From an uncultured Eisenbergiella sp. (GTDB taxonomy: Bacteria; Bacillota; Clostridia; Lachnospirales; Lachnospiraceae), in the NCBI GenBank assembly GCA_947598825.1, contig CANQFM010000033.1, positions 1 to 34,196 of the forward strand: DNA of 34,196 nt, written 5' to 3'. Positions 2,326 through 34,169 of this stretch are shown here, piece after piece; the first letter of the stretch is position 1, and every line of letters begins with the position of its first letter. The notes under the pieces are model-generated. The model saw only the letters and a program-made list of their open reading frames with translations, made no database searches and was not told the origin of the DNA. The position numbers were made by a program, and so were the translations under genes.

Positions 2326-3580
2326 GTTCCGTATCCTTTCTCATACGCAGAATATCCCAGCGTCCGGCTTTTTCCGAGAGGGTCAGCCACAGGGCCTGCC
2401 TGGGATGCGGGGCGCTCTCTGCCGTATTCCCCTGCTCATCTTCTATTTTTTCCACTGTGGCCGTCACGTCGTTTCCCTGCGGCTTCATGATCTCGATCCG
2501 GTCGCCGACGCAGAATTTGTTCCGCTGTTCGATGCGGACGCGCCCGTGCCCGTCCGTTTCGCAGACCGTACCGAGATAAGTGTATTCGCTGATATAAGCG
2601 GCCGCATCATAGATCTGCATGGTATGATCCGGCTTCCCAAAATAAAACCCGGTGCCGAACTGCCTGTGGGTACATCTGCCCGTTTCCTCCCGATACCAGT
2701 CCAGATTGGCGCGGTATTTGTCAACGGACTGCAGGCAATCGTCGATGGCCCTCCTGTATGCCCTGGTCACAACAGCCACATATAAGGCGGTTTTCATCCT
2801 GCCCTCCACCTTGAAGCTGTCAATTCCCGCCTCCAACAGTTCCGGGATATACTCTATCATATTCAGATCCCTGGAATTGAACAGGTAGGTGCCCCGTTCA
2901 TTTTCCTCCACCGGCAGATATTCTCCCGGACGGCTCTCCTCCATCACCGCATATTCCCAGCGGCAGGGATGGGTACACTCCCCCTGGTTGGCGTCCCGGC
3001 CCGTAAAATAATTGCTCAGAAGGCAGCGGCCCGAATAGGAAATGCACATGGCGCCATGCACAAAACATTCCATTTCCATCTCCGGCGGGATCTTCTCCCG
3101 GATCTGCCGCAGCTCTTCCAGCGTGAGTTCCCGCGCGGCCACCACGCGCCTGGCGCCCAACCGGTGCCAGAACAGATACGTTTCGTAATTCGTATTGTTG
3201 GCCTGGGTGGAAATATGGATCTCCGCCTGCGGCCATACGCTTTTCGCCAGCGAAAACATCCCCGGATCCGATATGATCAGCGCATCCGGACTGGCCGGTT
3301 TTCCTGCTGCAGTTTTTAAACACCGCAGGGCTTCAAAATAAGAAGCAGCCTGGGAAAGATCCCGGTTATGGGCCAGGATATTGGCGGTAACATATACTTT
3401 CACGCCATGCTCGTGGGCAAACCATATCCCTTCCGCCATCTCCTCCAGGCTGAAATTTTTCGCTTTCGCCCGCAGTCCGAACACGTCCCCGCCGATGTAT
3501 ACCGCATCGGCCCCGTAAACGACCGCGGTCATGAGTACCTCCAGGCTGCCCGCCGGGATGAGAAGCTCCGGCTTTTTCAT
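2315..3580 (-). CDS. trhP: U32-family tRNA U34 hydroxylation protein (TrhP/YrrN-YrrO-like)
   Basis: A 421-aa member of peptidase family U32. The N-terminus KPELLIPAGSLE and GADAVYIGG (24-31) are the usual U32 barrel start. The cysteine-rich signature lies at about 171-206 (ECFVHGAMCISYSGRC, then C202 and C206), proposed to hold an Fe-S cluster. In B. subtilis and E. coli, U32 proteins TrhP/YegQ make 5-hydroxyuridine at tRNA position 34. The adjacent methyltransferase (trmR) acts on that product, so this assignment fits better than the older protease or collagenase label. The start overlaps the trmR stop in an ATGA. B. subtilis carries two copies (trhP1, trhP2) here, whereas this window shows one. 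Function is inferred from family and context. Confidence 0.85.
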   Translation of the reverse strand: MKKPELLIPAGSLEVLMTAVVYGADAVYIGGDVFGLRAKAKNFSLEEMAEGIWFAHEHGVKVYVTANILAHNRDLSQAASYFEALRCLKTAAGKPASPDALIISDPGMFSLAKSVWPQAEIHISTQANNTNYETYLFWHRLGARRVVAARELTLEELRQIREKIPPEMEMECFVHGAMCISYSGRCLLSNYFTGRDANQGECTHPCRWEYAVMEESRPGEYLPVEENERGTYLFNSRDLNMIEYIPELLEAGIDSFKVEGRMKTALYVAVVTRAYRRAIDDCLQSVDKYRANLDWYREETGRCTHRQFGTGFYFGKPDHTMQIYDAAAYISEYTYLGTVCETDGHGRVRIEQRNKFCVGDRIEIMKPQGNDVTATVEKIEDEQGNTAESAPHPRQALWLTLSEKAGRWDILRMRKDTEHER

Positions 3581-30792: not shown

Positions 30793-30827
30793 AAAAAAAG
30801 GAGCGGTAATGCCGCTCCCGTTTTTTT
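30793..30827. terminator. Bidirectional terminator between convergent genes
   Basis: A tract (30793..30799), stem GGAGCGG (30800..30806), loop TAATG, stem CCGCTCC (30812..30818), then a T7 tract (30821..30827). It serves the SGNH gene (plus) and the MraY-like gene (minus). Confidence 0.85.
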
Positions 30828-30844: not shown

Positions 30845-31795
30845 TTATTTTAAGAACCAGTACGCCAGAACCACCAGCAGCGACTGCAGGATAATATACC
30901 GGCTCACCACCTGGGCGTCCGACCATCCCAGGTTCTTACGGGCGTGGTCGTGAAGCGGCGTCCTGGTCTTTGTCAAGATGCAGATCTTCAGATAACGCTT
31001 TAAAAATACCTTCACCAGGCCGATGCCGCCGTCTGCGATCGTCACCCCGGCCAGCAGCAGATAAGCAAAGGGATCCTGCGATTTCATGGCGACGATGCCG
31101 ATGAAAAATCCCAGCGCCCGGGAACCCGCGTCCCCCATCAGCATACTGCTGGGAGAGGCGTTGAAATACAGATAAGCGAACAGCACAGCGATGAACAGAA
31201 AGCCCGCCATGGCATACAAACCCAGCGTCTCGCTGAACAGCAGCGCAAACCCGAGCAGCGTCACGCTGCTGACGCTGGCGCACAGGCCGTCCACGCCGTC
31301 GGAGCAGTTGGTCACATTGACCGCGCCCCACAGCAGGATCACCGCCAGCACGAAATATAACGCCTTCGGGATCAGAAGCTCCAGCGGGCCGATCCAGACC
31401 GTCGTGTCGTTAAAGTTCAGGAAGGTGGCCGCCGCCATTACGGAAATGATCAGATCCAGAAGCCCTTTGACATATTCATTCCAGGGCTTGTCCGACGCGT
31501 CGTCCAGATAACCGCTCATCATCATGGAAAACAGCAGGATGGCATAGATCACATATTCCCTGTCCACAGGCAAAAACAAAAGGCTGCCCACAAGGAAACA
31601 GAGTACGAAAGTCAGGCCCACTCCGCGCAGCTTGCCTCTGGAAAGCGTCCCGTTCACCGCAAAGGCCCTTCCGTGATCGCTGGGCAGAAAGGGGAAGGGA
31701 TGTTTCAGCAGGATAAAGGTCATGGCAAACGTCGCCGCCATGCCCAACATCAGGATTTGATTTACCGTTAAATATCGTTCCCAGAAAAAATACAT
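30845..31795 (-). CDS. mraY: MraY-family phospho-sugar polyprenyl-phosphate transferase
   Basis: A 316-aa polytopic membrane protein with about ten helices. Cytoplasmic-loop motifs are SGYLDDASDK (DD at 98-99), NVTNCSDGVDGL (160-171) and MLMGDAGS (218-225). The C-terminal loop is TPLHDHARKNLGWSD (279-293). The last is the MraY TPLHHHFE loop with the central His replaced (H282-D283-H284) and the E/K part changed. MraY makes lipid I from UDP-MurNAc-pentapeptide. The overall fit is MraY rather than WecA or TagO, but the gene is outside a dcw cluster and the altered loop may change the substrate. ATG 31795 has an AAGGA RBS. It lies 41 nt after the P-II-like gene. Confidence 0.75.
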   Translation of the reverse strand: MYFFWERYLTVNQILMLGMAATFAMTFILLKHPFPFLPSDHGRAFAVNGTLSRGKLRGVGLTFVLCFLVGSLLFLPVDREYVIYAILLFSMMMSGYLDDASDKPWNEYVKGLLDLIISVMAAATFLNFNDTTVWIGPLELLIPKALYFVLAVILLWGAVNVTNCSDGVDGLCASVSSVTLLGFALLFSETLGLYAMAGFLFIAVLFAYLYFNASPSSMLMGDAGSRALGFFIGIVAMKSQDPFAYLLLAGVTIADGGIGLVKVFLKRYLKICILTKTRTPLHDHARKNLGWSDAQVVSRYIILQSLLVVLAYWFLK

Positions 31796-31836
31796 CGTCG
31801 TTTCCTTTTCTGTTCCCCGCCGCAGCGGGGAGCCTC

Positions 31837-32547
31837 TCATGCCTCTTCCTTTTCGCCCTGTTTTTCTTCGTCCTCTTCGATCAGACGCATGCCGGCGGTC
31901 TCCGTCACCGGCAGGGAAAATACGATGGCCCTGGCCTTGCTGTCCAGGCCGTTCTGCTGCATGATGGCCTTCATGATCGCATTTTTATCCTTTTTCCTGA
32001 CAACCATGAAGATCATCTCCTTTTCCGCAGCCAGGGAAACGCCCAAAAACTTTTCCGCCTTTTTGGCCCCCGTTCCCTTTGCATGGATCACGGTGCCGCC
32101 CGGCGCGTTGGCCTGCCGTGCGCTGTCCATGATCGGCTCGATATATCCCTGATTGGCGATCACCACGAGAAGTTCATATTTCGTATCCTTCAAGGCGCTT
32201 TCCTCCCCCTTTTCAAACCCACGCCCTTCCGTGAGATATTGAAGCTGTTTTTTCCCGCCGATGCTGCTCACGGGAACGATAAATGCGATCCCCGTGCCGG
32301 GGATATCGATCCGCATCTGCCGCTGCAGCCCGTTTTTGATCCTTTCCCATTCTTCCCCTAAAACAAAGGCGAACAGGAGCGCTTTCTCTACCGCCTCCAG
32401 CCCGAAGGAGTCCAACACCTCAGATGCGGCGGTGCCCTGACCCAGGGTCACCAGCAGCATATCGATCCCATATTCTTTATAGAAGGCCTGGAACCTGCGC
32501 ACCTGGTTCCGGTCGCTGATCGTCGCCATCATATATAATTCGCTCAT
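31837..32547 (-). CDS. Tandem P-II-like regulatory protein
   Basis: 236 aa with two P-II-type ferredoxin-like units. The second (about 122-215) has YELLVVIANQGYIEPIMDSA, a T-loop-like GGTVIHAKGTG (150-160) and EKEMIFMVVRKKDKNAIMKAI. The first (about 3-100) has a degenerate pattern: MMATISDRNQVRRFQAFYKEYGIDM and GTGIAFIVPVSSIGG. No uridylylatable Tyr of the GlnB T-loop type is seen. The C-terminal tail is Glu/Lys-rich. It lies 21 nt downstream of DUF1538 and probably regulates that membrane protein, as P-II proteins do for AmtB or SbtA. The ligand is unknown. Confidence 0.75.
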   Translation of the reverse strand: MSELYMMATISDRNQVRRFQAFYKEYGIDMLLVTLGQGTAASEVLDSFGLEAVEKALLFAFVLGEEWERIKNGLQRQMRIDIPGTGIAFIVPVSSIGGKKQLQYLTEGRGFEKGEESALKDTKYELLVVIANQGYIEPIMDSARQANAPGGTVIHAKGTGAKKAEKFLGVSLAAEKEMIFMVVRKKDKNAIMKAIMQQNGLDSKARAIVFSLPVTETAGMRLIEEDEEKQGEKEEA

Positions 32548-32568
32548 AGCCGCTTTTTCATTCCTCCG

Positions 32569-34098
32569 TCACAGTTCAATGATCGCGTTGTCATCCAGCA
32601 TATCGAAAGCCTGTGCCGATTCCTGGATCGATTTCCTGCGCAAAGACATCAGGATCCGGGAGGCAAGCCCCATGGCCTGTATCGTAATCAGCGGCGTCAT
32701 CGCCACCATGGCCACCACGCCGAAAGCATCGGTGACGATATCGCCGCCCAGCGCGATGCAGGCCCCCTGGGCCAGAGGCAGCAGAAAAGCCGCCGTCATA
32801 GGGCCGGAAGCCACACCGCCGGAATCAAAGGCGATGGCCGTATAAATCTTCGGGACGAAGAAAGAGATCCCCAGCGCGACCGCGTAACCCGGCAGCAAAA
32901 ACCAGAGTATGGAAATCCCCGTCAGCACCCGCACCATAGCCAGCCCCAGGGATACGGATACGCCGATAGAAAGGCCGGTCCCCATGGCGCGCGCGGAGAT
33001 CGCGCCGTCAGTGATCTCTTCCACCTGCTTATTGAGTACATAGACAGCCGGTTCCGCTTTTACAATGAAGAATCCCATCACCATGGCGATGGGGATCAAT
33101 ATCTGCGGATGCCTCAGTCCGGCCAATACCTGGCCCAGATAGTTGCCTGCCGGCATAAACCCCACGTTCGCGCCGGTCAGAAAAAGCACCAGCCCTGCAT
33201 AAGTATAGACCAGGCCGATCAGGATCCTGGTCAGCTTGCGCCGGGAAAGCTTAAGCACCAGAAACTGAAAGAGCAGAAAAAACAGAAAGATGGGGAGAAG
33301 CGAAACGGCGATCTCCCGCATATAGGTGGGCAGTTCTATCACAAAAAGACGCCAAAGCTGCATGGAGTCTTCCACCACCGGAATGGAAGGGGCCACATAG
33401 GCGCTGCTGCCGGGATGATAGATCAGCCCCAGCGCCATAACCGCCAGGATCGGCCCCACCGAACAGAGGGCCACCAGGCCGAAGCTGTCGTCCGCAGCGT
33501 GGCGGTCGCTTCGGATGGCGGAAATACCGACGCCCAGCGCCATAATAAAGGGCACCGTCATGGGGCCGGTGGTCACGCCGCCGGAATCGAAGGCCACGGC
33601 CAAAAAATCTCTGGGGACGAAAGCGGCCAGGATAAATACCGCCCCATAGGACACAAGCAGAAGATGCGGCAGCGGAACCCTGAACAGCATACGCAAAAGC
33701 GCCACCACCAGAAAAAGGCCGACGCCCAGCGCGACGGACAGTATGATCACTCTATTGGGAACTGAGGGGACCTGACCGGCCAGCACCTGCAGATCCGGCT
33801 CCGAAATGGTCACGATAAACCCGATCAAAAACGCGATCCCGGCGATCACAAAAAGATTGCGGCTTTTGGACATGCTGGAGCCGACGCTCTGGCCCATGGG
33901 CGTCATGGCGGTCTCGGCCCCCAGGGTGAACAGCATCATCCCGGCCATGACCAGCACCGTTCCCAGCAAAAAACAGAGCAGAATGCTGGGGGAAACAGGC
34001 GCGAACCCAAAACACAGGATCAGCACGATGGCCAGGATCGGCAGCACCGCCTGTAAAGCCTCATACCATTTTTCCAGCAGTTTTTTCCGAATCCTCAC
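32569..34098 (-). CDS. DUF1538 membrane protein with internal duplication
   Basis: 509 aa, polytopic (about 12-14 helices). It is built from two repeats. AFDSGGVTTGPMT (169-181) recurs as AFDSGGVASGPMT (423-435). The Glu-Pro pair in TISEPDLQVLAGQV (97-110) recurs in VKAEPAVYVLNKQV (346-359). Conserved acidic and glycine motifs inside helices suggest a transporter or channel core with two-fold pseudosymmetry. The function of DUF1538 is not established to my knowledge. The start is GTG 34098, with GGGAGG 11 nt upstream. It is first in the operon with the P-II-like and MraY-like genes. Confidence 0.85.
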   Translation of the reverse strand: MRIRKKLLEKWYEALQAVLPILAIVLILCFGFAPVSPSILLCFLLGTVLVMAGMMLFTLGAETAMTPMGQSVGSSMSKSRNLFVIAGIAFLIGFIVTISEPDLQVLAGQVPSVPNRVIILSVALGVGLFLVVALLRMLFRVPLPHLLLVSYGAVFILAAFVPRDFLAVAFDSGGVTTGPMTVPFIMALGVGISAIRSDRHAADDSFGLVALCSVGPILAVMALGLIYHPGSSAYVAPSIPVVEDSMQLWRLFVIELPTYMREIAVSLLPIFLFFLLFQFLVLKLSRRKLTRILIGLVYTYAGLVLFLTGANVGFMPAGNYLGQVLAGLRHPQILIPIAMVMGFFIVKAEPAVYVLNKQVEEITDGAISARAMGTGLSIGVSVSLGLAMVRVLTGISILWFLLPGYAVALGISFFVPKIYTAIAFDSGGVASGPMTAAFLLPLAQGACIALGGDIVTDAFGVVAMVAMTPLITIQAMGLASRILMSLRRKSIQESAQAFDMLDDNAIIEL

Positions 34099-34140
34099 TC
34101 CGCTTTCTGCCTCCCTCTTCCCTGCGTTCCTGCTTATTTT

Positions 34141-34169
34141 AGTATATCATATCGGGAGACAATACCCAA
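34141..34169 (-). promoter_or_regulatory. Promoter of the DUF1538 operon
   Basis: Minus strand: -35 TTGGGT (34164..34169), a 17-bp spacer and -10 TATACT (34141..34146). The predicted leader to GTG 34098 is about 37 nt. Confidence 0.6.

Follow-up and report, generated by a model that had tools for sequence, protein, structure and literature searches.

The window analyzed here, a complete contig of 34,196 bases from an uncultured Eisenbergiella sp. of gut type (genome of 3.05 Mb in 110 contigs), carries at its end three genes in a row on the minus strand, which encode a membrane protein of the family DUF1538, a protein with two P-II-like domains in tandem and an MraY-like protein. The first two genes are a self-contained two-gene module, and this pair is probably a P-II-type gate on a cation/proton antiporter, whereas the third is a divergent paralog outside the module. 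P-II-gated transport is a known principle; what would be new is its application to a family of cation/proton antiporters, a combination for which descriptions are scarce. The order of the three genes, described in an original prediction made from the DNA sequence alone, is borne out by open reading frames (ORFs) and by Pfam matches for all three families. The features of the pair are as follows.

32569-34098, minus strand: DUF1538 membrane protein of 509 amino acids (aa), GTG start; putative cation/proton antiporter of two fused repeats, a UmpA-like and a UmpB-like half
33421-34038, minus strand: first DUF1538 repeat (PF07556, expect value [E] 1.4e-69)
33556-33594, minus strand: motif AFDSGGVTTGPMT, residues 169-181, in the first repeat, between two half-helices (helix break in the model at 176-180)
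32665-33291, minus strand: second DUF1538 repeat (PF07556, E 2.4e-70)
32794-32832, minus strand: motif AFDSGGVASGPMT, residues 423-435, at the matching place of the second repeat (helix break in the model at 430-432)
31837-32547, minus strand: P-II-like protein of 236 aa with two domains in tandem, which putatively regulates the DUF1538 transporter
32227-32538, minus strand: N-terminal P-II-like domain, residues 4-107, which aligns to a separate P-II gene and has a profile match to 9p1x
31885-32172, minus strand: C-terminal P-II domain, residues 126-221 (PF00543, E 1e-10 to 5e-9)

Evidence that the two genes belong together is apparent from their neighborhoods. Our survey covered 169 loci, comprising 139 best matches or relatives of the query and 30 from 32 genomes chosen for weak or single matches; some of these overlap, as L013 and L117 seem to be one contig. 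In 163 of the 169, DUF1538 has a P-II-like gene as its immediate neighbor, encoded in the same direction; the remaining six are five contig ends and L172. The original prediction had hinged on co-occurrence beyond close relatives, and this neighborhood survey finds it. Among 245 genomes of the class, DUF1538 occurs in 86 (about a third), the P-II-like protein in 85 and both in 82 (Fisher p 5e-56, a value that is only a guide because related genomes are not independent). All four genomes with DUF1538 and no P-II-like match have DUF1538 at a contig end; of the three with a P-II-like protein and no DUF1538, two encode a PF00999 exchanger next to the P-II-like protein and the third has neither. 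When the genes around 80 loci were clustered, members of the pair appeared in 74 and 64 at the thresholds used and the next cluster in only 9, and no third gene family recurs beside the pair in these 80 loci. The pair is also found on plasmids: nine plasmid records contain DUF1538, and an annotated P-II gene lies next to it in all four examined, two of which, from the Alphaproteobacteria Chelativorans and Methylocystis, have two DUF1538 genes and one P-II gene. Two individual loci may be mentioned in addition. At L172 a DUF1538 remnant with six stops has no P-II-like gene, and G095, a sampled genome from that genus, has an intact DUF1538. At L011 the two P-II genes in a DUF1538 cluster are closely followed, on the same strand, by a riboswitch for cyclic di-AMP (2913-3085).

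The pair comes in several architectures. DUF1538 as one double chain is accompanied by a tandem P-II protein in 108 loci and by two P-II genes in 11 (in two such loci one of the genes is longer), and the sole exception to P-II domains coming at least in twos is L149, a double-chain locus cut by a contig end. DUF1538 as two genes goes with a single P-II gene (15 loci), a tandem P-II (11) or two P-II genes (7). The remaining loci with one DUF1538 ORF (L009, L041, L168-L171 and L173) are short contigs or contig ends. A half-size module, one complete single-repeat DUF1538 gene (231 to 234 aa) with one single P-II gene, is seen at L144, L145, L146, L150 and L157. In six genomes DUF1538, DUF1538 and P-II are joined in one polypeptide of 608 to 641 aa, whose P-II-like tails match our own profiles at E 1e-18 to 1e-24 and in five cases keep the motif QPEKE. 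This fusion is the strongest hint of contact between the two proteins.

The DUF1538 protein far exceeds the PF07556 gathering score of 22.6 (457.9 bits, E 4e-138, in two stretches) and is an internal duplication, with 32% identity over 195 residues (E 6e-28). The duplicated AFDSGGV-x2-GPMT motifs to which the original prediction drew attention are present at matching positions of the repeats. In 27 of 27 aligned sequences, the window's included, F170, D171, G174 and T176-G178 of AFDSGGVTTGPMT are invariant, as are F424, D425, G427-A430, G432 and M434 of AFDSGGVASGPMT and the charged pairs E100/E349, R136/R390 and D171/D425, one member per repeat. An AlphaFold2 model of the protein is confident (predicted local distance difference test score, 87.3; predicted template modeling score, 0.85) and shows the conserved motifs at or beside points where a helix is broken into two halves: residues 99-100 and 176-180 for the first repeat, 349 and 430-432 for the second. 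Structure comparison searches gave no convincing match to a solved structure.

A function for such proteins is suggested by UmpAB of Halomonas zhaodongensis, a hetero-dimer of two DUF1538 proteins that acts as an Na+(Li+,K+)/H+ antiporter, according to PMC5484666. The solute of DUF1538 therefore need not be called unknown, as it had been; the family has been studied, and it is for the window's own protein that the solute is inferred. The two systems share the Pfam family, two homologous halves and conserved Asp, Glu and Arg residues, the latter compared without a residue-by-residue alignment to UmpA and UmpB. They differ in that UmpAB has two subunits where the window has one chain, followed by a P-II-like gene, and in that the window's protein matches the UmpA and UmpB models below their cut-offs (NF041627, 150.2 of 490 bits; NF041628, 136.2 of 500 bits). 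The terms P-II, PII and nitrogen regulatory are absent from the main text of the UmpAB paper, and our literature search turned up no account in which DUF1538 or UmpAB has a P-II protein as its partner.

The assignment of the partner rests most firmly on its C-terminal domain, which passes PF00543 (41.8 bits against a gathering score of 25) and has the ferredoxin-like P-II fold whose presence the original prediction had left to be checked, with SbtB structures among the best fold matches. By sequence comparison the N-terminal half is also P-II-like: at loci with two separate P-II genes, such as L020, L035 and L036, the N-half aligns with one of the genes and the C-half with its partner, and the N-half profile matches the solved P-II 9p1x (E 3e-8). 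Its predicted secondary structure is strand-helix-strand-strand-helix-strand, and none of the fold matches listed covers it.

P-II proteins are known above all for control of nitrogen and carbon uptake. There are relatives beside other transporters: PII-NG, a single-domain P-II, lies next to CusABC as well as the exporter discussed below, and PotN is linked with a polyamine transporter. PotN of Lentilactobacillus hilgardii (7o4x), a PII-like protein, is among the fold matches listed for the window's protein and gives a weak profile match (E 0.09). In the consulted part of a review (PMC10710835), P-II proteins are encoded with, or fused to, the transporters that they gate, as in GlnK-AmtB; the partners named are AmtB, Amt1, Nrt, Urt and SbtA, the known partners act as trimers, and text searches for the words DUF1538 and UmpAB do not return this review. 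The window's own genome has such a case, the fusion of an Amt ammonium transporter with a GlnK domain of canonical type (L003:1-1848, contig C39), so that linkage or fusion of a P-II to its transporter is common to this Amt-GlnK and the DUF1538 pair, although Amt is an ammonium channel of another family. SbtB of cyanobacteria, a P-II-fold protein of noncanonical type, is in an operon with and bound to the Na+-linked bicarbonate transporter SbtA, which belongs to another family than DUF1538, and has one domain per chain; control of SbtA without need for SbtB has been reported, a caution for the analogy (PMC8352866, in part). PII-NG is a divergent P-II beside the proton-driven cation exporter CzcABC, a metal/proton antiporter of another transporter superfamily than DUF1538 (PMC7726332, in part).

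Taken together, these features suggest how the pair might work. The DUF1538 protein would be a one-chain version of the two-subunit UmpAB antiporter, with the two AFDSGGV..GPMT motifs and the helix-break glutamates E100 and E349 pairing up as half-sites along the transport path. Its tandem P-II-like partner would dock on the cytoplasmic face of DUF1538, as GlnK does on AmtB and SbtB on SbtA, and once docked would raise or lower ion exchange as it senses a ligand, one recognized by other means than the canonical P-II motifs. By analogy with those systems, such docking with an effect on exchange is the most likely arrangement, and because the pair persists in distant bacteria and sometimes fuses, the P-II-like sensor very probably controls the exchanger. 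The gate on a membrane transporter that the original prediction envisaged thus gains support from near-universal adjacency, natural fusions and the P-II fold of the C-domain.

A second family lends independent weight to the idea that P-II-like proteins serve cation transporters. Single-domain P-II-like proteins of a distinct subgroup have their genes immediately ahead of a cation/proton exchanger at 24 of 30 loci (L241-L270; the arrangement is also recorded at L234:2889-4396 and L235:3200-4715), and two of the 24 are the loci that gave the lead. Two of the exchangers are PF00999 by Pfam (E 6e-35 and 5e-35), and the others match those two at 45 to 70% identity; the six loci without an exchanger include a contig end (L259). 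No description of a P-II-like subgroup before a PF00999-related exchanger was found in the literature searched.

Several points weigh against an antiporter gate. Antiport by the window's protein, binding of the two proteins to each other and gating of transport are each a step beyond the gene identities, near-universal adjacency, co-occurrence, natural fusions and C-domain P-II fold observed here. As the UmpA and UmpB equivalog cut-offs are unreached, the solute may differ from that of UmpAB. AmtB-GlnK and SbtA-SbtB are trimers, which DUF1538 may or may not be. The fused P-II domains are identified by BLAST and our own profiles, and Pfam, run on three of five fusions, finds no P-II at E 1 in those three and gives only E 0.14 for the sixth. 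Canonical GlnB and GlnK carry a B-loop GDGK, a C-loop [RK][IV]R.G and a T-loop YRG; the genome's own GlnK has all three (GDGK, KVRTG and YRG), whereas each is found in 0 of 302 distinct P-II-like domains, with RTG alone in 3. Stricter patterns (R[IV]R.G and the full uridylylation motif) miss the genome's own GlnK too and are hence no fair test. The sensing of adenylates or 2-oxoglutarate originally proposed is thus unsupported by motifs. Lastly, 11 of 97 places with P-II-like genes are not beside a listed DUF1538: four are beside an unlisted one, two at contig ends, two beside a PF00999 exchanger, one beside a ZIP transporter and two alone. Among individual loci, two P-II-like genes stand directly before a ZIP-family metal transporter at L238:2953-4606, and at L192:3730-4443 and L237:3145-3444 no DUF1538 or antiporter was seen near the P-II-like genes.

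What the pair transports, and whether the P-II-like protein acts on it at all, may be read in other ways. The pair could be a P-II-gated transporter for another solute, such as bicarbonate, an organic anion or a metal, with antiport by UmpAB as a side activity or peculiar to halophiles. We consider this unlikely, though the foremost of the alternatives, as the only DUF1538 proteins for which we came across a test are antiporters of Na+, Li+ and K+ against protons (PMC5484666), another P-II-like subgroup accompanies cation/proton exchangers, and no solute-linked gene recurs beside the module. Alternatively, the main target of the P-II-like protein may lie elsewhere, in an enzyme or transcription factor, with adjacency reflecting shared regulation only. 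A few P-II-like genes without DUF1538 or another antiporter (in G559 and on G525:C8) fit such a target, but unless the two proteins touch, it is difficult to account for their fusion in six genomes and for their neighboring genes in 163 of 169 loci, which makes this reading quite improbable.

More remote still is the proposal that all three genes work as one, the P-II-like protein linking transport, by way of the MraY-like enzyme, with the synthesis of lipid-linked cell-wall precursors.

30845-31795, minus strand, from the likely start (longest ORF, 30845-31840): MraY-like glycosyltransferase-4 paralog (PF00953), a neighbor outside the module

In favor of it, the window and four congeners have the three genes consecutively on one strand. 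DUF1538 is present in 10 of 12 congeners, with the P-II-like gene adjoining in all 10, but the MraY-like gene adjoins as well in only those 4, with gaps from the P-II-like gene of 11, 35, 410 and 427 nucleotides (nt). In the other six it is on another contig (four), about 97 kb away (G633) or about 20 kb away (G638), and no MraY-like relative is found in the flanks, up to 8 kb, of any of the 80 other loci. Because the linkage is not conserved, the cell-wall link is rejected, and the three-gene unit is largely refuted. A canonical mraY, encoding the usual HHHFE, is moreover present on contig C15 of the genome. The MraY-like protein matches Glycos_transf_4 (PF00953; 92.2 bits, E 5e-26), stays under the cut-off of the mraY equivalog TIGR00445 (86.8 of 192.05 bits) and has HDH in place of HHH near its C-terminus; the paralog is kept in 11 of the 12 congeners. 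Its neighbors in G633 and G639 include HPr-like genes, and SbcD-like genes are nearby in G638 and G632.

The spacing and signals of the three genes bear on the original prediction in different ways. The 21-nt gap that it gave between DUF1538 and the P-II-like gene is exact. The 41-nt gap to the MraY-like gene holds with a start at MYFF (31795), about where the MraY-like proteins of congeners begin to align; the longest ORF would instead give an overlap of 4 nt. The single promoter that it assumed was not recovered, a promoter scan finding no sigma-70-like site upstream of DUF1538; by eye, TTGGGT-17-TATACT can be seen there, matching at 8 of 12 positions and under the limit of the scan. Downstream of the three genes is a terminator-like hairpin, which is weak because 7 such sites were found against 4.4 expected.

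30799-30819, minus strand: terminator-like hairpin (consensus match only)

If the pair is indeed an antiporter gate, a little-studied transporter family and its sensor become testable as a pair, with the natural DUF1538-DUF1538-P-II fusions as ready constructs for structure work. Beyond this pair, we tentatively suggest that a branch of the P-II superfamily may have taken on the gating of cation/proton antiporters. One of its subgroups, in many cases duplicated in tandem in keeping with the doubled transporter, would act on DUF1538/UmpAB, and a second one on PF00999 exchangers. As the canonical P-II site is gone from them, such proteins may respond to some other signal (pH, an ion or a second messenger of nucleotide type) and may thereby connect metabolism with the intracellular balance of Na+, K+ and H+. 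Ion and pH balance would then be gated by metabolism in the way that nitrogen and carbon uptake are, and this in roughly a third of the genomes sampled from the class.

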